Translations under genes and position numbers: made by a program | Notes under the pieces: model-generated | Told to the model about the DNA's origin: nothing | The model's database searches: none | Seen by the model: only the letters and a program-made list of their open reading frames with translations | Source of the DNA: Candidatus Eiseniibacteriota bacterium | GTDB lineage: Bacteria > Eisenbacteria > RBG-16-71-46 > CAIMUX01 | Assembly (NCBI GenBank): GCA_903844735.1 | Contig: CAIMUX010000030.1 | Coordinates: 1 to 64,000 of the forward strand | Length of the DNA: 64,000 nucleotides | Reading direction: 5' to 3' | Part shown: positions 43,057 through 53,393 of the stretch, one piece after another | How positions within the stretch are numbered: position 1 is the stretch's first letter | Layout of the letters: each line of letters opens with the position of its first letter

Positions 43057-43766
43057 ACGCGCCGTTTCTGCAGATTCGGGACCTCGAAGTCGCCTACGGC
43101 CGCATCTGTGCCGTGCGCGGCATTTCGTTGGAGATCGCCGAGGGTGAGATCGTCACGCTGATCGGCGCCAACGGAGCGGGAAAGACCACCATCTTGCGCG
43201 CCATCTCCGGGATGGTGCCCTACACAGGGAGCATCGTCTTCGGCGGAATGGACCTGCACGGCGTACCCGCCCACCGGCGGGTGGCCCTGGGCATCGCTCA
43301 TGTCCCCGAAGGACGCGGGATCTTCTCCAACCTGACCGTGGCCGAGAACCTCTCCCTCGCCACATGGGGACGGCGCGACCGGCTGGGCATCAAGGCCGAC
43401 CTCGCGCGGGTCCATGCGCTCTTCCCGAGACTGGCCGAACGCGCGCCGCAGATGGCCGGCACGCTCTCCGGCGGTGAACAGCAGATGCTCTCCGTGGGCC
43501 GGGCGCTCATGAGCCGCAGCAAGCTCCTCCTCCTCGACGAGCCGTCGATGGGGCTCTCGCCGATCCTGGTCCGCGACATCTTCCGCGTGCTCCGGGAGAT
43601 CAATGCGACGGGGACAACCATCCTCTTGGTGGAACAGAACGCGCACCTGGCGCTGCAGCTCGCCGGGCGCGCGTGGGTCTTGCAGAACGGGCGGGTGGAG
43701 CTGACTGGGCCCGCGGCGGCGTTGGCGGGAGATCCGAGGGTGCGGGAGGCGTACTTGGGGGGGTGA
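43053..43766 (+). CDS. livF: Liv-type ABC transporter ATPase LivF
   Basis: A 237-residue ATPase. Walker A GANGAGKTT, the LivF line GIAHVPEGRGIFSNLTVAENL, signature LSGGEQQMLSVGRAL, Walker [14 protein letters not shown] and VEQNAHLALQLAGRAWVLQNG are all present. It begins with GTG overlapping the livG stop. A shortened second copy of its 3' end lies at 48577-48762. The region after its stop stays open in frame (see 43767-44027). Confidence 0.93.
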   Translation: MNAPFLQIRDLEVAYGRICAVRGISLEIAEGEIVTLIGANGAGKTTILRAISGMVPYTGSIVFGGMDLHGVPAHRRVALGIAHVPEGRGIFSNLTVAENLSLATWGRRDRLGIKADLARVHALFPRLAERAPQMAGTLSGGEQQMLSVGRALMSRSKLLLLDEPSMGLSPILVRDIFRVLREINATGTTILLVEQNAHLALQLAGRAWVLQNGRVELTGPAAALAGDPRVREAYLGG

Positions 43767-44027
43767 CCGGGCCGCGGCTCGGGGTGGACGTCCGCTCCGG
43801 AACCGAATACCGAGTACGAGATTCTGGTCTATGGCGAGCTCGGCACCCTCATCCACACCGAGACAGGGATCACGGGAACCTCCTGGACCTACCTCGAGGC
43901 CCGCGAAAGGCTCGACTCCGGGCTGGAGCGGCTGAACACCCACCTGCGGATCAAGATCAGGACCTGGAACGAATCCCGCACCTACGGGGCGATCCGGGAG
44001 ATCGAGCGGGAGATCGCTCGGGTGTGA
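43767..44027 (+). pseudogene. Remnant resembling the FN3-like end of a phage tail protein
   Basis: Directly after the livF stop the same frame stays open for 86 codons and reads as real protein: TEYEILVYGELGTLIHTETG, GTSWTYLEARERLDSGLERL, LRIKIRTWNESRTYGAIREI and a stop at 44025-44027. This line looks like the FN3-type modules at the end of phage tail-tip or gene-transfer-agent proteins. There is no start codon or ribosome site, so it is a 3' fragment. The phage assignment is by general resemblance only. Confidence 0.4.
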
Positions 44028-44567
44028 AAGGTCACTCTCGTAGAGTGCTCTGGTTCACGGCCACGGAACCACCCACGACGCCTTGCGCTTTGCGGGCGGG
44101 TCGATGTCTGGTGATATCTCTGCTCGCGGTTCGTTCACCGCGATGGGTTAGCTTGTACTACGAAGGAGCGCGCGTGTCAACCGCCGCGTGCACCGATGGC
44201 CGAGTTCCGGCCCACCGACATCGTTCATGCAGCATGGCTTCTGTCACCCAGTTGGTTAGCCCCAACGTCCTTCAGTGCATTCGTGGCACACTTCCGGGAC
44301 CGCAGGGCAAGAGATCCATCTGCAGGCCTGCGATGCAGTTTTTCGCGGGGTAACGGTGCACGTCCGATTCAGGAACGCCCGGGCAACGGGCCGCATGAAA
44401 GGGAGAGGGGGCAACCGAAGGCGAGGAGCACAGAGCGGCGTGGCCGATCTGTTCGCCGGATGCGCGCAGCGTGTCTGCGGCCCTTGCTCTTTCGCGCCAA
44501 GGGACTCACGGTCACCCTCCGAATTCGGACGGTGGCCGCCATACATCCGTGAGAAGACGGTTGTGGG
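44028..44567. other. Non-coding stretch
   Basis: About 540 bases without a convincing gene. It contains a perfect seven-base inverted repeat TCGCGGT / ACCGCGA with a six-base loop at 44124-44143, not followed by T residues. A minus-strand frame at 44256-44546 has random-looking composition and is not called. Confidence 0.35.
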
Positions 44568-45263
44568 TCAATTGATGATCAACAGCTTGCCCTTCCACTC
44601 CTTTTCCTGCAGACGAAGCCGATAGAAGTAGACACCGCTCCGCCAGTCACCAGGGCGAAGATCGAGCGTGTGCCAGCCAGCTGGAAGAGACCAGGTGCTT
44701 GCGGCCCCCGGAAGGCGTCGGCCTGCGCAATCGAAAACATCCAGAGACACGGCCGCCGGTTGCGGTAAACCTAACTTGAACCGCGCTCTCGGGCGTGCCG
44801 GGTTCGGAACCGGACCGACCACCGAGAACTGAGATGGAAGCGAGGGGTCTCCCTCGATGTCGCTGATCCCGTCAATGCACACCACAAACTCACGCGTAAT
44901 CCCATCAACAGGGTCGTAGGCTTGGGGATAGAACGCAAAAGCCGAGAACTCCCGCGACGGTCCATCGAAGGCGTCGGGTATCGCCTCTGGTACCAACGTG
45001 AACACGGTGAGTTCCCGTGTTCGGCCCTCGGAGATCGCCGGCATCGGCTCCGGGACAAGTGAGAACACGGTGCTCTCTCGCGCGAGCCCCTCTTGGATGT
45101 CAGGGACAGCGAGGGCGGACGAGGTGTATGTCGTGAATTCACGAGAAAACGACTCCGACGAAATTGCGGACCCGATTGTGACCTGCCCCGTTGAAAGCGC
45201 CACGAGTGAAAGGAACCAGAGGGCGGCAGCGGTCTGAGGGCATCCACGTGTGTCTCTCGCCAT
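44568..45263 (-). CDS. Secreted protein with SREF-type repeats and FlgD/Por-like C-terminal domain
   Basis: A 231-residue exported protein. The signal peptide includes AAALWFLSLVALSTGQ. Residues about 35-135 consist of five units of 20-22 residues, each with a (S/A/T)RE(F/L/S)(T/S/V)(T/V)(F/Y) core followed by an acidic hinge: SFSREFTTY, ARESTVFSLVPEPMPAISEG, TRELTVFTLVPEAIPDAFDG, SREFSAFAFYPQAYDPVDG, TREFVVCIDG. The last 80 residues form the FlgD-like sorting or Ig domain (PNPARPRARFKLGLP, LDVFDCAGRRL, GWHTLDLRPG, SGVYFYRLRL). The ATG at 45263 was chosen by the signal peptide. It follows the Gly-rich gene by ten bases and is likely co-transcribed with it. Confidence 0.75.
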   Translation of the reverse strand: MARDTRGCPQTAAALWFLSLVALSTGQVTIGSAISSESFSREFTTYTSSALAVPDIQEGLARESTVFSLVPEPMPAISEGRTRELTVFTLVPEAIPDAFDGPSREFSAFAFYPQAYDPVDGITREFVVCIDGISDIEGDPSLPSQFSVVGPVPNPARPRARFKLGLPQPAAVSLDVFDCAGRRLPGAASTWSLPAGWHTLDLRPGDWRSGVYFYRLRLQEKEWKGKLLIIN

Positions 45264-45273
45264 CACACACCCC

Positions 45274-46494
45274 TCATGGTTTGGTAGCCTTGGCCTGTAT
45301 GGCGACGTATTCGTGGTCCGGGAGAGGATCCAGAGCGATCGTCCAGTGCGAGAGCGCGCTGTCGCCATCGACCCACGTCGCCGTTCTCAGGTACTCGGCG
45401 CCCGTTCGCGGGACGACCCGGGCCGTCAAGGACCAATTCAAGGGGACACACCGCGCTTCCAACACGGCGCTGACAGGCCCGTGATCACCGATCGTCACGT
45501 CCCCGGGTCCGACGAACTGGGAGTGAGGATCCGCAGGCACCGGCAGGCCGTTGAAGGTGGTCACCCGCAGGCGCGGTTCGTCCGCCGGGGGCCAGATGTC
45601 GGCCACGTTGTTCTCTAACGGCATCATCAAGCTGTACGGCGGGGTGCTGTTTCCGATCAGGTTGGTCGAGTTCGCCTCCAGGCGGATGCGGCCGAGGCCA
45701 GAGCCTGATGAGGTCCCGATAGCGTAAAGCATTGGGTAGCCTTCGATATGATTGGCAATGAGGCGAATCGCCCCGCCGCTGCCAAACCAGGCGGCGCCGC
45801 CGCCATTCGCCTGGATCAATGAGTTCACGCTCAAAATCGTGATGGTCTCATTAGCGGCGATGAGAATGGCCCCGCCTCCAGCGCCTCCTCCGGTGGCCGA
45901 AGCGTCCGATCCGGAGCCGCCAGAGCCCCCGATCAACGGTAGAATGCGGGAGTTGCCATAGGTCGCGCCGGGATTGATCCCGGTGCCCGGTGTCGCATAG
46001 CCTCCGCCACAGCCCAGTTGGGAGATGCCTCCGAAGCCCCCCCCCCCGGGCCCGAGTCCAGCGCTTGCGCGCGTGCTGGCGCCATAGCCTCTCCCGCCTC
46101 GGAATCCTCCCGGTCCTGGCACCGAGAAGGTAAGATCGCTGGTGGCCGCTCCACCGTTGAGCTTGACGGTACCACTGATGGTGACATTGCCCTGAACCAG
46201 CCAGACCACCGGCGCCCCCGACGGGTGGTTCTTGAAGTACAACGTCTTGGAGGCGTTGATCGTCACCGAGGTAAAGTGGTACACCACCGCCCACTTTTCG
46301 GGGTCATAGATGCCGTTGCCAACGCCGATGCTCGGATCGTTCCACGTGCCGGTCGTTGCCAACGACAAGTCCAGCGTATCGTTGACCGAAACGACAAGCG
46401 CCCCATCAGTCCCGTCCGAGCCGACATCCAACGCGCGGACACTTCCCGCGAGCCCAACAGACAGCGCGAGTACGGTAACGTAGATCATTCTCAT
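45274..46494 (-). CDS. Gly-rich secreted surface protein
   Basis: A 406-residue exported protein: signal peptide (MRMIYVTVLALSVGLAGSVRA) and a beta-rich body with repeated hydrophobic turns (GNVTISGTVKLNGGAA, AGGGAILIAANETITIL, GSGGAIRLIANHIEG) and a central Gly/Ala/Ser-rich zone (about 130-225). The pattern recalls Gly-rich beta-helix surface proteins; no exact family is recognised. AAGGAGGA lies seven bases before the ATG at 46494. It heads a two-gene unit with the SREF-repeat protein and may share its surface location. Confidence 0.7.
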   Translation of the reverse strand: MRMIYVTVLALSVGLAGSVRALDVGSDGTDGALVVSVNDTLDLSLATTGTWNDPSIGVGNGIYDPEKWAVVYHFTSVTINASKTLYFKNHPSGAPVVWLVQGNVTISGTVKLNGGAATSDLTFSVPGPGGFRGGRGYGASTRASAGLGPGGGGFGGISQLGCGGGYATPGTGINPGATYGNSRILPLIGGSGGSGSDASATGGGAGGGAILIAANETITILSVNSLIQANGGGAAWFGSGGAIRLIANHIEGYPMLYAIGTSSGSGLGRIRLEANSTNLIGNSTPPYSLMMPLENNVADIWPPADEPRLRVTTFNGLPVPADPHSQFVGPGDVTIGDHGPVSAVLEARCVPLNWSLTARVVPRTGAEYLRTATWVDGDSALSHWTIALDPLPDHEYVAIQAKATKP

Positions 46495-47297
46495 GGGTGG
46501 ATCCTCCTTCAACCTTCGAACGCGAGAAAGGCATCATCGTTGGGGAGGGAATCGAATCACATCCGGAGCGTCTTTCGTCCCACATCGAATGGCCTCATGT
46601 AAGCCTACCCAAGCTTGGGGTCCATTTCAGGTTCGTTTCGGGGCGTCCCGTTGGCGGTCACAAGAGTGACATCCCCGCTCCGGTCGCGGGCAATGGCGGT
46701 TCCCGAGAATTCGCGGCGTTCCCCGCGCAGGAAGCACGGCGGACCACGCGGGGCAGAGGCCTCACTCCGGCCCGGTCGGAGATCCCCGGCTGGTCATGTT
46801 CAAGAAGGGCGTCCGCCATGTCCCCTTGGGGAAGAGCGAACACACCGGCGATCTGGGGTGCGTCCTGGGGAGGCGGCCGGATCGGAGGCTCCGGCCCTCC
46901 GGAATCCACGGTGCCTCTCCGATCTCCCGTCCGACAAATCGCGGTTTGGGCTCCAGCGAGGATGGCGAGCGCGATTCCGAAAACCGTCTCATCCGTCCCC
47001 CAATTCACCCCGCCCCCCGCAGCGGCCTGTCCCCGTCTGAGTGCCTCTCCCCCCCCTTTGTCAGAGGCGGTACGCCGGCGCCCCAGGCCGGGCCAGGACG
47101 CCGCCATGTCCGGAGGGCAGTCGGATGTTCCGGCAAGACGCTTTGGCGAGCGGCCGTCATAGGCGCGTCCCATCGCGCTGGGCAACCGAGTTCGGCCGAT
47201 GGGTAGCCGAGTTCGGAGTCGCGCCGGGTATGTAATCACCAGGTACCAGGACTCTTCGCGCACGAGCCAAGGGGGCAGAGGCGTCCCCGGACAGGCG
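46495..47297. other. Non-coding, repeat-bearing stretch
   Basis: About 800 bases between the minus-strand surface genes and the Cro-like gene. No frame looks like protein on either strand. A 32-base block at 47185-47216 resembles the codons for TEFGRWVSDFG within the following gene (about 27 of 32 identical), so a partial copy of that gene lies here. Confidence 0.4.
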
Positions 47298-47621
47298 ATG
47301 ATTCGCGACGAGGCGCTAGGGCTCGGGCAGTTCCGGCGAGCCCCCGACCGCTGGCACACCGAGTTCGGACGATGGGTGAGCGACTTCGGCACCTCACGCA
47401 TCGTGGCGGCACTTGCCCACGACCCCGACCTACGCGTCACCAACCAGTCGGTCTACGAATGGCTGCAAGGCCACCCGCCAACTGCGTCCCGGGCCCTGGC
47501 ACTGGTCGCGATGTCCCGCGGCCGACGCACCCTCGACGCCATCTACCACCACGCCCTTGAGATCCGGCGACCTCCCGATACCACCGCCGCGTCGAGGCGG
47601 TCTTCACCCTCCGCGGCGTGA
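47298..47621 (+). CDS. Small Cro/CI-like helix-turn-helix protein
   Basis: About 107 residues. The centre reads RWVSDFGTSRIVAALAHD then VTNQSVYEWLQGHPPT, which fits a Cro/YdaS helix-turn-helix (helix, turn, recognition helix ending in VYEWLQG like VSKWERG). The helical remainder RALALVAMSRGRRTLDAIYHH has no match I recognise. The ATG at 47298 is chosen as the first in a plausible context; the frame is open upstream. Partial copies of its sequence occur at 47185-47216 and 48891-48969. It ends 85 bases before the 42-base palindrome array, so it may bind that array. Confidence 0.55.
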   Translation: MIRDEALGLGQFRRAPDRWHTEFGRWVSDFGTSRIVAALAHDPDLRVTNQSVYEWLQGHPPTASRALALVAMSRGRRTLDAIYHHALEIRRPPDTTAASRRSSPSAA

Positions 47622-47706
47622 AGATGGGTCCGAACGGCTGGAAAGCCGGTGGCGTCCGCGATCCGACCCCGAGGGGGTGCTGAAACGTGAAAATCAATCG
47701 TGCGAG

Positions 47707-48145
47707 AGGTCGGTCGGAGATTTGTACTGACGAAAGCAGTCGTGCGGAGGGTCGGTCAGCATGCTGTACTGGCGGGCTCCGTCGGGAGAAGGGTCGGTCA
47801 GCACGCTGAACCGGCGGACGCCGTCGAGAGGAGGGTCGGTCAGCACGCTGACCGTGCGAGCGCCGTCGGGAGAAGGGTCGGTCAGCACGCTGACCGTGCG
47901 GACGCCGTCGGGAGAAGGGTCGGTCAGCACGCTGACCGTGCGGACGCCGTCGGGAGAAGGGTCGGTCAGCACGCTGACCGTGCGGGCGCCGTCGGGAGAA
48001 GGGTCAGTCAGCACGCTGACCGTGCGGGCGCCGTCGGGAGAAGGGTCAGTCAGCACGCTGACCGTGCGGGCGCCGTCGGGAGAAGGGTCAGTCAGCACGC
48101 TGACCGTGCGGGCGCCGTCGGGCGAAGGGTCGGTCAGCATGCTGG
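47707..48145. repeat. Eleven-unit 42-bp tandem array with a palindrome in each unit
   Basis: Units start at exactly 42-base steps: 47707 (degenerate), 47749, 47791, 47833, 47875, 47917, 47959, 48001, 48043, 48085 and 48127 (partial). The core of the unit is CGGTCAGCACGCTGACCG, an 18-base inverted repeat with eight-base arms and an AC centre; four central units have it perfect and three have one G-to-A change. The outer units have CAGCATGCTG instead. 42 bases equals four turns of B-DNA, so all palindromes face the same side. Because 42 is a multiple of three, several frames stay open (14-residue repeats such as LTDPSPDGARTVSV on the minus strand), but no frame has a good ribosome site except a weak one at 47761. 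Confidence 0.85.
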
Positions 48146-48576
48146 ACTCATGTCGGAACGATTGCGCACGGCAGTTCGGATCTCTGACCGGGCTTTGGAC
48201 GGCCGAAACTCGGGGTGGAGCCTTCGGACCTGGTGTTTTCGCGATTGCTTTTTACTTTTCAGCAGTGCGACCGAGCCGGCGCACAAAGTAACACGACTCT
48301 TGGGCGATCTTGCTTCTGGCCGGCGCGGCGGCGGCGCGCAGGGAGAGCGGTCGGCCGGCGGGGAGCACGGTTAGAGACAGAGTTGGGAAGACGGACCGGT
48401 GGGGGTCACGGGGGCAGCGGGGAGGGAAGCTTGCGGCCCGGCGTTGGTCACGGCAGCGGCGGGGAGTGTCGCGGGGGATCCGGCCTTGCTCGTGATTGCG
48501 TCCCGGGGTGTGGCGTGGAACCCGCCGTGGTCCCGACGGTTCTTCGTCGCTCTCGGAGTCACCTTCACCCGAATCG
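48146..48576. other. Non-coding stretch after the array
   Basis: An AT-richer patch (TTTTCGCGATTGCTTTTTACTTTTC near 48235-48259, given here by its ends only) is followed by very GC-rich sequence. Open frames exist but have low-complexity, Arg/Pro-rich composition typical of chance frames. Nothing is called. Confidence 0.35.
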
Positions 48577-48762
48577 TCCGTGGGGCGGGCGCTCATGAGT
48601 CGCAGCAAGCTCCTTCTCCTCGACGAGCCGTCGATGGGGCTCTCGCCGATCCTCGTCCGCGACATCTTCCGCGTGCTCCGGGAGATCAACGCGGCGTTGG
48701 CGGGAGATCCGAAGGTGCGGGTGGCGTACTTGGGCGGGTGACCGGGCCCCGCCTCGGGGTGG
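48577..48762 (+). pseudogene. Second, internally deleted copy of the livF 3' end
   Basis: 48577-48693 matches 43491-43607 of livF with five differences in 117 bases, and 48691-48762 matches 43716-43787, including the stop and about 20 bases beyond it. An in-frame block of 111 bases (37 codons) is missing at a GCG triplet shared by both sides. The copy encodes [20 protein letters not shown] and ends VAYLGG, but lacks Walker A and any start signals. It probably arose by duplication followed by deletion. Confidence 0.85.
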
Positions 48763-48890
48763 GGCGAAGGGCGCCCGGGGGCGATGGATCTCCTTTCGTA
48801 AGTACTCTGGTAGACAGGAATCAGAAGTCAGAATTCAGAATCATGGCCCGCGAACGGGGCTCCAGCAGCTTGCTCTTGGAATCACACGGG

Positions 48891-48969
48891 CACTGGTCGC
48901 GATGTCCCGCGGCCGACTCACCCTCGACGCCATCTACCACCACGCCCATGAGATCCTTCGACCTCCCGA
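48891..48969 (+). pseudogene. Fragment of the Cro-like gene
   Basis: 79 bases match 47500-47578 (four differences) and encode ALVAMSRGRLTLDAIYHHA. The fragment lies directly next to the C-terminal end of the AAA_14/DUF4143 relic on the other strand. Just upstream (about 48819-48843) a run of near-identical heptamers CAGAAGT/CAGAATT/CAGAATC is present. Confidence 0.75.
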
Positions 48970-48973
48970 AGAT

Positions 48974-49440
48974 TCACAAGGACGGAAGCAGGGACCAGAT
49001 CTCCTCTGCCAGATAGATCGGCAGTGAAATCAGCCGGCAGCGTAGCGGACCATCCGGGAAAGCCACCTCGAGTCTCTGATCCGCCTTCGGGTGAGGCCAG
49101 AGGCGAAGACCGGTCCTCAGGCCGGACTGCCACAGAAACTGGTGCAGCGACTTGAGCTCAGCGGGCGCTTGGTTCGAAAGGTGACACGCCCGACAGGGAA
49201 GGAGAGCCCCCGTTGTTCAAGTCGAACCTCCAGGAGGGAGCCCGAGGCAATGACCGCGATCTTGGGATGGTCCTCTCGGAAGAATCGGAGCCACTGAATC
49301 GCTTCCGGGCTTTCCTGTACCTCATCGAGAAAGAGGAGTGTCCCCGGAGGGAACGAGGGGAGATTGTGCCGGGCGGCCAGCGCGGACAGCACCCCACCGA
49401 AACACCCCCGTATATTGCTGCCGTCTCTTAGCAAATACAA
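48974..49440 (-). pseudogene. AAA_14/DUF4143-type ATPase relic with central deletion
   Basis: The minus strand reads LLFLDEVQESPEAIQWLRFF (Walker B region), IAVIASGSLLEVRLEQ and LSFPVGRVTF, the signature core of AAA_14/DUF4143 ATPases. A frameshift follows, and another frame continues with ELKSLHQFLWQSGLRTGLRL and ends LPIYLAEEIWSLLPSL, the family's C terminus. The N-terminal Walker A part and the DUF4143 middle (together about 250 residues) are missing. It is a decayed antitoxin-like or cell-surface-defence-type ATPase. Confidence 0.7.
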
Positions 49441-49709
49441 GGGTGTCTTGGAGAGGCGCGGCTGTTCGGATCACTCGGCTGAGGCGAACCGTGAGCGCCG
49501 CCCGTAGCGTGCCAATCCTCAGCCCAACAGAACTGGTGGAGTAACGAGTTAGGTGGCCTCCCGAGGCGTGACGGATGCGGTAGATCTTTTTCCGTGCGCC
49601 TGGGGATCCGTGAACATGACGCCGCCAAGATCAGGTGTTCAACGTGCGACGCCACCAAGATCCAGCCGAAAGTCGAGGTCCACGGGTCGACCACGAGGAA
49701 GAAGGGAAT
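49441..49709. other. Non-coding stretch before the SARP gene
   Basis: No gene is recognised. The block GCCGCCAAGATC near 49622 and GCCACCAAGATC near 49650 is a short imperfect direct repeat. Ribosome site GAAGAAGGG precedes the ATG at 49710. Confidence 0.35.
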
Positions 49710-52700
49710 ATGTACGCGATTGAGCAGACGCCCGATGGGTTCAAACTGACCTTCGGGGGAATCATGTCGAAAAGCGAGATGGAGCCCCGATCCAAGGGCC
49801 TGCCCAATCGTGATCAACTTCGCTCAGCGTCTTGCGGCCGGGCCGATCCGCAGTCTCCCCTCCCTCCAGAAAACCCTTACAATCCCGGCCGGGATGGGAA
49901 GGAGGGTCCGCTGGTCCCGAAACTGGAAATCCGCCTGCTGGGGCCTCCACGCGTTCTCGCGTTCGGAAGGATCCTTCCTATCCGGCGACGCAAGGCGCTG
50001 GCCCTGACCGCCGTTCTGGCGTCGAGCCGAACTCCCCACACACGCGAGTTGCTGGCCGCCATGTTTTGGCCCGAGGCCGACCGGGATAGCGCCCATGCCC
50101 AGATACGCAATCACCTCTGGATTCTCCGTGCGGCCGGCCTGGGTCCCTGGCTCTCGGCCGAGGGAGAGATGGTCGAGCTGCGCGAAGGGGAGGGTCTCTG
50201 GGTTGACGTGAGGGAATACCGGCGCCTGCTCGGACTGGCCGGCCTGGTCCCAGGGCGACGCGGCGCACTTTCCCCCCAGGCCGAGCCAAGCCTGAACGAA
50301 GCGGTGGCGATCTATCAGGCGCCGTTCCTGGCCGGATTCCACCTCTCCGACAGCCTGGCCTTCGATGAGTGGCAACTGCGCGAGGAAGACGTCCTTCGGG
50401 TCGGCTTGGGAGCTGCGCTGGACGCGTTGATCCGTCTCCGCGAAGAGGTGGGGGACATGGAGGGCGCGGTGGCGAACGCGTGCCGCCGCATGGAACTCGA
50501 TCCCTTCGACGAGCGCAGTCTCCGCACCCTGATGACGCTTTACGCGCGCATGGGGAGGCGCAAGGAGGCGTTGCTGTGGTGCGAGAGGACCAGCAAGCTC
50601 CTCGATCGGGAGCTGGAGCTTGCCCCTTCCCCGGAAACGGTTCTCCTGCGCGACCAGATCCTGGCCCGCCGCGCCGGGTGCGGGGAAGGTCTGGATGATC
50701 TCCTGCCGCGCCCGGCGTCCGTCGCTCCGTCTCGAATCGCCCTTCCAGAACCGCCGACTCCGTTCGTGGGGCGCGACGAGGAGCTGAAAGAGATCGCGCA
50801 GTATCTGGATGAGCCGGGGCTTCGCCTCCTCACGCTCACCGGTCCGGGAGGTTGTGGCAAGACGCGCTTGGCCCTTCAAGCCGGACGGACGTTGCGTGAC
50901 CGATTCCCCGATGGCGTGGTGTTCGTCTCCTTGGCCTCGGTGGAGGCGGGGTATCTCATTCCCGCGGCGCTGGCCGAAGTCTGGTCCCTGCCGCTGGGGA
51001 CTCGCGATCGCGCCCCTTCTTCTACGGGCTCCGGCTCCTCGGGGTCCTTCGGAGAGCTGATCGACTTCCTGCGCGACAAGCAGTTGCTTCTCATCCTGGA
51101 CAATCTGGAGCAGGTCGTGAACGATCTCGGGCCTTTGCGGGAGATCCTGGCGAGAACTCGCGGCCCCGTCTTTCTGGCCACCTCACGTGTACGGTTGCGC
51201 ATGGCGGGCGAGCAGATCCTGGAGGTGGAGGGTCTGCCTTGGCCCGAACGGAGGGCGTCTCCGGACGAACTGCCACGGTATCCGTCGGTCCGCCTCCTTC
51301 TCCAGGCGTGCCGGCGGATGCGGTCCCTTTCCAATCCTTCACCCGCGGAACTGCAGGCGGCCGGGGAGATCAGCCGGAGGCTGCGGGGCCATCCGCTGGG
51401 GATCGAGCTTGCGGCCTCCTGGGCGCACTGCCTGAGCGTGGTGGAGATCGCAGAGCAACTGGCCGCCAGCCTGGACCTGGAGGCAGCGCCGAAGACCGAC
51501 ATCCCGCCGCGCCATCGAAGTCTTCGCGCGGTCTTCCAGCAGTCGTGGGCGCTGCTGTCTGCCGAGGAGAGGACGGCGTTTCGCAGGCTTTCCTTGTCGC
51601 CCGGTTCGTTCGATCGAGAAGCGGCTCTGGAGATCGGAAGGACCACACCCGCGGTCGTCGCCTCGTTGATCGAGCAGTCGATTCTGCGGCCCACGCGTGA
51701 CCGGCGTTTCGAGATCTTGGAAACGCTGCGGCAGTTTGGCCGGGAGAAACTCGCCGCCGATGTCCGGGAGGAAGCTGCGGTCCGGGATCGTGCCGCGCGC
51801 CACTACCTTGGCAGGTTGATCGATGCGCGTTTCTCGATCGAGGGCCCCGGTCAGAGGAAGACTCTTCGGAATCTGACGCGTGACCGTCACCACCTGCGCT
51901 CTGCCTGGCTGAGGGCGGCCGAGCGAGGGTGGATCACGGCGATGTCGAAGGCGGTGCGGCCGCTCTTTCTCTTCTACGACATGTCCAGCCGCGTCGCGGA
52001 GGGCGCGGAGGTTTTCGGACTGGCGGCTCGTGACCTGAAGCGCGGTCACGGAGGGCCGAGGGGGAGTGCGGCGGCCGCTCGCGAGCGACGGCTGCTCGCG
52101 CTTTCGCGCGTGGCGCAGGCCTGGTTCATCCGCTACGAACAGTCCGAACGATGCCGCAGGCTGATGCGGCAGGGTCGAAGGGATCTCTCCGAGGTGGGCA
52201 AACCCGGCGAACGCGCCTTCGTCGACGCCCTTGCCACCGTTGTCGGCGCCGCTCCTGCGCACGTCGAGCGCGTGCTGCGGGAAGACGCCCTGCAGTGTGA
52301 GAAGGCCGGTGACTTATGGTGCGCCGGTCTTTGCTGGGAGATCCTGGCCGACTGTCTTGGCACGAGCGATCCGGCGGAGGCGCTCCGGGTCATTCACCGG
52401 AGTCTGGCCTTGAGGCGCCGGTGTCGTGACCGATGGTCGATCGCGCTGGGGATCTATGTCATGGGCCTGGTGCTGGAGAAGCGCGGACTTCTCCATGGGG
52501 CCCGTCGGCGCTTCGAGGAGAGCCTGGCGCTGAGGCGCCGGCTGCGGGTGGACCCGGATGGCGTCTTCTTGTGCCTGGAAGCCATCACGCGCGTGGCGTT
52601 GCGCGCGGGCGCGGTGGAGGATGCCCGCCGGCACTGCGGAGAGGCGCTGGCCTATGCGCAACGGACGGGTCACGTCGCGTGGATCGGCCTGGCGCAGACC

Positions 52701-53393
52701 CGCCTGGCGCAATCTCACTATCTTGGCGGGACGCCGGCCGATGCGCGACCGCTCCTGGAGCCGGCCCTGATCACTACGGAAGAGTTGGAAAATGCCGGGT
52801 GGTCGAGTCACCTTCACGCGCTGAGCGGCCTCGTCGCCTTGGAGATGGGTCAGGAGGACGAGGCCCGCTGGAGCCTGGAGCGATCTCTGTCGGCCATGCC
52901 TCCGACAACGCATCCGGAACCGGCAGTCTCGGGGGTCGAAGAGTTGCTCAGCGTCTGGCCCACGTCTTGGCGCGATCTTCTGGAGGCGAGGCTGGCGTTG
53001 CATCGAGGAGAGCACACAGCCTCCAGCCGGGCGCTCGTGCGTGCACTCGAACAGGCTTTGGCCTCACGACACGAACCGCTTCTTCTGGAAGCTCTCGCCG
53101 TCTGGGCGGAGTGCCGCGTGCGGAGCGGCCGCCCATTCTCGGCCGACCGCTTGGGCTCGCTGCGCCTTGCCTGCTCTGCTCTTCCCGAACACCGGCGGAT
53201 CCGGATGGAGAGCATCCTACGAGGCCTGGAGGAAGAGGGCGGGACCGGACGGGCGGGACCGGAGGAGGAGCCACCGGGTGTGGCCCGACGTGCGCCCGCT
53301 GTCGCCCGGTGTGGGCCGGACGTCGGATCACCGGGCACCGCCCTGTTCACCCTGGCCGCAGATGTGTTGTCGGACGAGCAGGCAAGCGGTTGA
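49710..53393 (+). CDS. SARP/BTAD transcriptional regulator with ATPase and TPR domains
   Basis: A 1227-residue regulator of AfsR/LuxR-associated ATPase type. After about 70 residues comes an OmpR-like winged helix (LEIRLLGPPRVLAFG, RRRKALALTAVLAS, RDSAHAQIRNHLWILR) and a BTAD helical domain (about 150-310). An NB-ARC-type ATPase follows with GPGGCGKTRLAL (378-389) and LLLILDNLEQV (about 452-462), then TPR repeats to the end. Residues 1-24 (YAIEQTPDGFKLTFGG) resemble the start of an unrelated STAS-like protein. The alternative CTG at 49911, four bases after AAGGAGGG, would start the protein directly at LVPKLEIRLLG. It is probably a pathway activator; its target is not evident. Confidence 0.85.
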   Translation: MYAIEQTPDGFKLTFGGIMSKSEMEPRSKGLPNRDQLRSASCGRADPQSPLPPENPYNPGRDGKEGPLVPKLEIRLLGPPRVLAFGRILPIRRRKALALTAVLASSRTPHTRELLAAMFWPEADRDSAHAQIRNHLWILRAAGLGPWLSAEGEMVELREGEGLWVDVREYRRLLGLAGLVPGRRGALSPQAEPSLNEAVAIYQAPFLAGFHLSDSLAFDEWQLREEDVLRVGLGAALDALIRLREEVGDMEGAVANACRRMELDPFDERSLRTLMTLYARMGRRKEALLWCERTSKLLDRELELAPSPETVLLRDQILARRAGCGEGLDDLLPRPASVAPSRIALPEPPTPFVGRDEELKEIAQYLDEPGLRLLTLTGPGGCGKTRLALQAGRTLRDRFPDGVVFVSLASVEAGYLIPAALAEVWSLPLGTRDRAPSSTGSGSSGSFGELIDFLRDKQLLLILDNLEQVVNDLGPLREILARTRGPVFLATSRVRLRMAGEQILEVEGLPWPERRASPDELPRYPSVRLLLQACRRMRSLSNPSPAELQAAGEISRRLRGHPLGIELAASWAHCLSVVEIAEQLAASLDLEAAPKTDIPPRHRSLRAVFQQSWALLSAEERTAFRRLSLSPGSFDREAALEIGRTTPAVVASLIEQSILRPTRDRRFEILETLRQFGREKLAADVREEAAVRDRAARHYLGRLIDARFSIEGPGQRKTLRNLTRDRHHLRSAWLRAAERGWITAMSKAVRPLFLFYDMSSRVAEGAEVFGLAARDLKRGHGGPRGSAAAARERRLLALSRVAQAWFIRYEQSERCRRLMRQGRRDLSEVGKPGERAFVDALATVVGAAPAHVERVLREDALQCEKAGDLWCAGLCWEILADCLGTSDPAEALRVIHRSLALRRRCRDRWSIALGIYVMGLVLEKRGLLHGARRRFEESLALRRRLRVDPDGVFLCLEAITRVALRAGAVEDARRHCGEALAYAQRTGHVAWIGLAQTRLAQSHYLGGTPADARPLLEPALITTEELENAGWSSHLHALSGLVALEMGQEDEARWSLERSLSAMPPTTHPEPAVSGVEELLSVWPTSWRDLLEARLALHRGEHTASSRALVRALEQALASRHEPLLLEALAVWAECRVRSGRPFSADRLGSLRLACSALPEHRRIRMESILRGLEEEGGTGRAGPEEEPPGVARRAPAVARCGPDVGSPGTALFTLAADVLSDEQASG

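Follow-up and report, generated by a model that had tools for sequence, protein, structure and literature searches.

The palindrome array at 47,707–48,145 of the window (the whole stretch of 64,000 nucleotides that was analysed, on contig C30 of a 5.4-Mb Eisenbacteria MAG) is one of about 20 related elements in its genome, where elsewhere such arrays have a partner, here called gene X, which lies on the other strand and is absent from the window contig. Our main reading, to which we give a probability of about 0.45, is that the array and gene X make up a two-part module, in which the array is the cis-acting component and would provide phased sites for a dimeric protein controlling that gene. 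The arrays are associated with gene X, keep their period while their sequence changes, carry no coding signal and are symmetric between strands; from these features we infer binding by a dimeric protein and an action on gene X. This genomic context was beyond the view of the sequence-only reading, and a search of the literature for repeats of 42 bp or four turns and for Eisenbacteria repeats returned nothing relevant.

Within the window, Tandem Repeats Finder delimits a tandem repeat at 47,748–48,144 with a period of 42, 9.5 copies, 94% match and no indels, and its score of 643 is the highest of the window (runner-up 83). The core CAGCA[C/T]GCTG occurs ten times, starting at 47,757, 47,799 and so on up to 48,135, every step being exactly 42 bp. 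The exact repeat with little drift noticed from the letters is thereby borne out and the best form of the palindrome had been given correctly, while the count of eleven palindromic units holds for ten intact ones (47,757–48,144, no strand assigned) plus a strongly degenerate first unit (47,707–47,747). Each unit combines a palindrome of ∼18–22 bp with ∼20 bp of non-palindromic sequence, so that the former description as an array without spacers is right in that the whole 42-bp unit repeats and needs rewording as regards the non-palindromic stretch; unique spacers between identical repeats, as in CRISPR, are absent. A 21-bp imperfect inverted repeat, recognized from sequence and kept in other copies, bounds the array at 47,680–47,700 (plus strand, CTGAAACGTGAAAATCAATCG) and 48,242–48,262 (minus strand, reading CGATTGCTTTTTACTTTTCAG on the plus strand). 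A second, unrelated 42-bp unit (GGGGAGGGAAGC...) was identified by sequence and lag analysis in ∼1.5 copies at 48,419–48,480 (no strand assigned), and four copies of it are present in contig C91.

The stretch that the window copy has in common with other module copies of the genome spans 47,605–48,566 (minus strand, the sense strand of the module), with 77–94% identity to C55, C78, C91, C95, C121 and C21, and its left edge at 47,605–47,607 is sharp and common to the matches with C55, C78 and C91. A direct repeat of 81 bp (95%; 47,498–47,578 and 48,889–48,969, both plus strand) flanks a ∼1.3-kb insertion that contains the array, and the outer segments 47,281–47,578 and 48,885–49,163 are contiguous in contig C4 (L109), which thus displays the arrangement without interruption; C4 also has an array of its own nearby. 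Since gene X and the sigma-54-like promoter box found at other copies are both gone here and the array lies within this repeat-flanked insertion, the window copy is probably an orphan, and any function in its present place would be speculation. The 21-bp inverted repeat and the shared stretch of ∼1 kb had suggested a transposon with terminal inverted repeats, a candidate that we rejected on the different break points of the copies; no transposase was found among the ORFs looked at. The product of 47,298–47,621, whose binding the earlier note had proposed to test, is not the obvious binder, as this plus-strand ORF of 107 aa belongs to a different, interrupted locus and not to the module. It is a member of a small multi-copy family (...NQSVYEWLQGH...) with no Pfam match, with remnants at 47,125–47,223 and 48,779–48,997 and several genome copies near orphan arrays (L109, L124). 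The surroundings also include a protein (44,568–45,368) in which SREFxxF-like segments recur and whose C-terminus resembles a sorting domain, fragments of an ABC transporter ATPase and its shared tail that are probably pseudogene debris (48,600–48,740 and 43,673–44,353), the remnant of an AAA_14-type ATPase gene (49,117–49,440) and a 1252-aa regulator with BTAD, NB-ARC/AAA and TPR matches (49,635–53,393).

Outside the window, gene X is found on the minus strand of the array, several hundred bp downstream, in C119, C76, C111, C92 and C91. It is preceded by a good ribosome-binding site, encodes a product of ∼230 aa and is present in the genome as ∼14 near-full-length copies plus fragments. No credible match was obtained in Pfam, NCBIfam, PHROGs or PDB, so that gene X would also represent a new protein family, and none in the phages, plasmids and viral contigs searched; a weak lead to DUF6261 (E 0.024, one member) gained no support on follow-up. 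The AlphaFold2 model (mean pLDDT 86.6) shows two ∼59-residue helices in a bundle, which predicts an all-helical fold built from long antiparallel helices. Comparison with PDB and with viral models gave no significant structural neighbour, and the protein has no recognizable DNA-binding domain. A distant copy accompanied by an array of period 42 is carried by a same-order relative (Eisenbacteria MAG WJJW01000050, G006). A second class, reached from contig JAKBES010000335 of a MAG labelled Acidobacteria, has gene X in seven of 13 genomes. Two divergent gene X copies, G056C99 and G048C3, lack arrays and group together in the tree.

The conservation of the period is best seen across these loci. 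The strongest repeat lag is 42, 43, 84 or 85 bp in 23 of the 33 regions upstream of gene X from Eisenbacteria and the second class (eleven copies from the latter), a count inflated by kinship among phylogenetically non-independent copies, compared with 6/118 control windows, all taken from window DNA of its own genome, and 0/18 stretches downstream of gene X. The remaining ten regions have another top lag. At least several of the 23 are independent, because they come from two bacterial groups and from gene X copies with identities of 20–40%. Most loci keep the spacing with repeats of unrelated sequence, and the palindromes differ almost fully (TTCCCGCGGGAA, CACTCCCGTGGGAGTG, CATCTCG...CGAGATG, CCAACCTACGCGTGAGTTGG, GGTCAGCACGCTGACC); in the second class, they already differ between gene X copies that are 45–63% identical. 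Dyad symmetry nevertheless recurs, the observed value being reached by only 2/200 within-unit base permutations in the window, C118 and G006 and by 0/200 in C135, although the palindromes of several arrays (C13, C29 and C119) are weak or marginal. Such a turnover of sequence with a preserved 42-bp period and neighbour gene is an unusual indication that the helical phasing of DNA is itself under selection.

These data bear directly on a neutral origin, in which gene X has inherited an upstream 42-bp array that slippage homogenizes, the period of the array persisting by inertia and its palindromes meaning little. Several features of the arrays are in keeping with such a minisatellite: units are 94–99% identical in some arrays and ∼52% in others, unrelated arrays adjoin each other in C29 (43 and 42 bp) and C91 (with the second 42-bp unit), and the units of orphan copies have decayed to lengths of 41–43 bp. 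Two of the three subfamilies were aligned, and their copies differ by the gain or loss of whole 42-bp units. The window copy itself, with its freshly homogenized units, is compatible with the recent minisatellite that had been offered as an alternative from the outset. In five copies (C55, C78, C95, C121 and C21), the contig breaks off within the array, which is what repeats that disrupt assembly would be expected to cause. Drift in unit length among relatives had been named as evidence against a binding role; it is found in decayed copies only, and gene-X-linked arrays stay at 42 or, in C135, C13 and C29, at 43. Inertia would however have to explain the same period in front of genes only 20–40% identical in two bacterial groups and its absence downstream, as well as palindromes that outperform permuted controls in several unrelated arrays, and we therefore consider the neutral explanation unlikely.

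The array is non-coding. A sense-strand open frame runs through most arrays and several of them, once translated, read as R-x-[F/L/Y]-containing repeats, which could suggest a 14-residue repeat peptide encoded on the minus strand (e.g. VLTDPSPDGARTVS), but tandem 42-bp units hold any open frame open by construction. Differences between copies are spread evenly across the three codon positions (e.g. 49/48/49 for C109 versus C76) and those between units are likewise devoid of codon-position bias, so that the third-position excess is missing at both levels and the substitution pattern gives no sign of the purifying selection on a 14-residue repeat that would have spoken for a protein. Together with frameshifting gaps of 1–2 bp in C76, C109 and C103 and the period of 43 in C135, C13 and C29, this pattern led us to rule out the coding repeat, which we regard as highly improbable.

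More serious is the possibility of a role as RNA: transcribed as a leader ahead of gene X, the array would form a series of hairpins with gene X as the protein partner, in the manner of the repeat RNA of type III toxin–antitoxin systems. Array and gene are indeed co-oriented on the same strand, and folding of the L210 units yields two-part hairpins whose loops are related. In two low-G+C loci (L248 and L249), the best and sole sigma-70-like promoter lies upstream of the array, which would thus be transcribed there, and a sigma-54-like box is similarly located 5′ of the array in C118 and C22. In most copies of the window genome, however, this box (TGGCCCG-N4-TTGC; ten copies, 116–139 bp before gene X) stands between the array and the gene; it is absent in G006. 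At the level of the repeats, mismatches at paired palindrome positions are G–T in 44 and A–C in 52 cases with no strand bias, and span-limited, pseudoknot-free folding gives similar stability for both strands (mean z of −1.06 for sense versus −1.13 for antisense). The lack of a G–T over A–C excess and the equal folding point to symmetry at the DNA level. Moreover, covariation between arms stays within the level of shuffles in nearly all arrays, RNA covariation across the whole element favours neither strand, an Rfam scan gave nothing above the gathering score, and an RNA would not readily account for an exact 42-bp step held while the sequence changes. Strand symmetry thus favours DNA sites over RNA hairpins, and an RNA leader appears doubtful to us. 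A protein-binding array, as already proposed from the sequence, remains the best reading of a non-coding, strand-symmetric element whose spacing of about four turns persists across two bacterial groups in arrays of unrelated sequence.

In the module that we propose, tandem dyad-symmetric sites, whose centres follow each other at a distance of four helical turns (42 bp, in some arrays 43 bp), lie upstream of gene X, which encodes the ∼230-aa putative helical protein downstream on the same (minus) strand. A dimeric DNA-binding protein may occupy all the palindromes from the same helix face and build a multi-protomer complex across several hundred bp, through which gene X would be controlled or with which its product would assemble. 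The candidates for this binder are the gene X product and the REC-AAA+ sigma-54 activator whose gene stands beside five of the 18 gene-X loci scanned (L108, L119, L014, L227 and L165, some of the genes being truncated as in L108). The linked activator had been the leading candidate and is now kept as one option only, because C92 and C91 have near-identical activators with different arrays and most loci are without an activator. Locus-specific palindromes may keep paralogous modules from cross-talk. A more far-reaching version, which we put forward tentatively, is that of an undescribed two-part module that extends over two or more bacterial groups: a rapidly diverging four-turn palindrome track would nucleate its cognate helical protein, and locus-specific sequence would give orthogonal pairs in each genome. 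If gene X or a partner binds the array, this would constitute an unnamed protein–DNA system in which each genome has many orthogonal pairs, and would offer a ready test of the joint divergence of site arrays and their proteins. Clustered GTGTGNN...NNCACAC palindromes are also found between the array and the gene X promoter in L108, L015, L119, L107 and L127; their variable letters are uniform within a locus and differ between loci (AA/TT, CC/GG, AC/GT). They were first taken as part of the array and are in fact a separate cluster.

Compared with known systems, the module recalls plasmid iterons and partition centromeres (parC, tubC) by its tandem phased repeats adjoining the gene of a likely partner, binding being putative here. 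It differs from them by its palindromes in place of short direct iterons, by its 42-bp step and by the lack of a Rep or Par gene (the ORFs scanned next to gene-X loci and at the array of the window gave no Pfam match to Rep or ParM/ParA/TubZ). Type III toxin–antitoxin systems (ToxIN, CptIN, TenpIN) similarly associate tandem repeats of ∼36–48 nt with one co-oriented downstream protein gene, an organization that is true of the gene-X copies and not of the window copy, and occur as several diverged pairs per genome. Unlike in these systems, the palindromes of the module bear no RNA-specific signal, and gene X, predicted to be all-helical and without profile relation or fold match to any PDB chain, does not match an endoribonuclease of the ToxN/CptN/TenpN type. 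Finally, the upstream activating sequences of sigma-54 promoters, bound by NtrC-type enhancer-binding proteins, share with the module palindromic sites that would lie on one helix face, in ten copies upstream of a sigma-54-like promoter box, and REC-AAA+ activator genes adjoin five module copies. Nevertheless, the sites of the module number about ten, follow each other at four turns and are separated from the promoter by hundreds of bp, its sequence varies from locus to locus and most loci are without an activator; in this respect, the near-promoter GTGTGNN palindromes resemble ordinary activator sites more than the array does.
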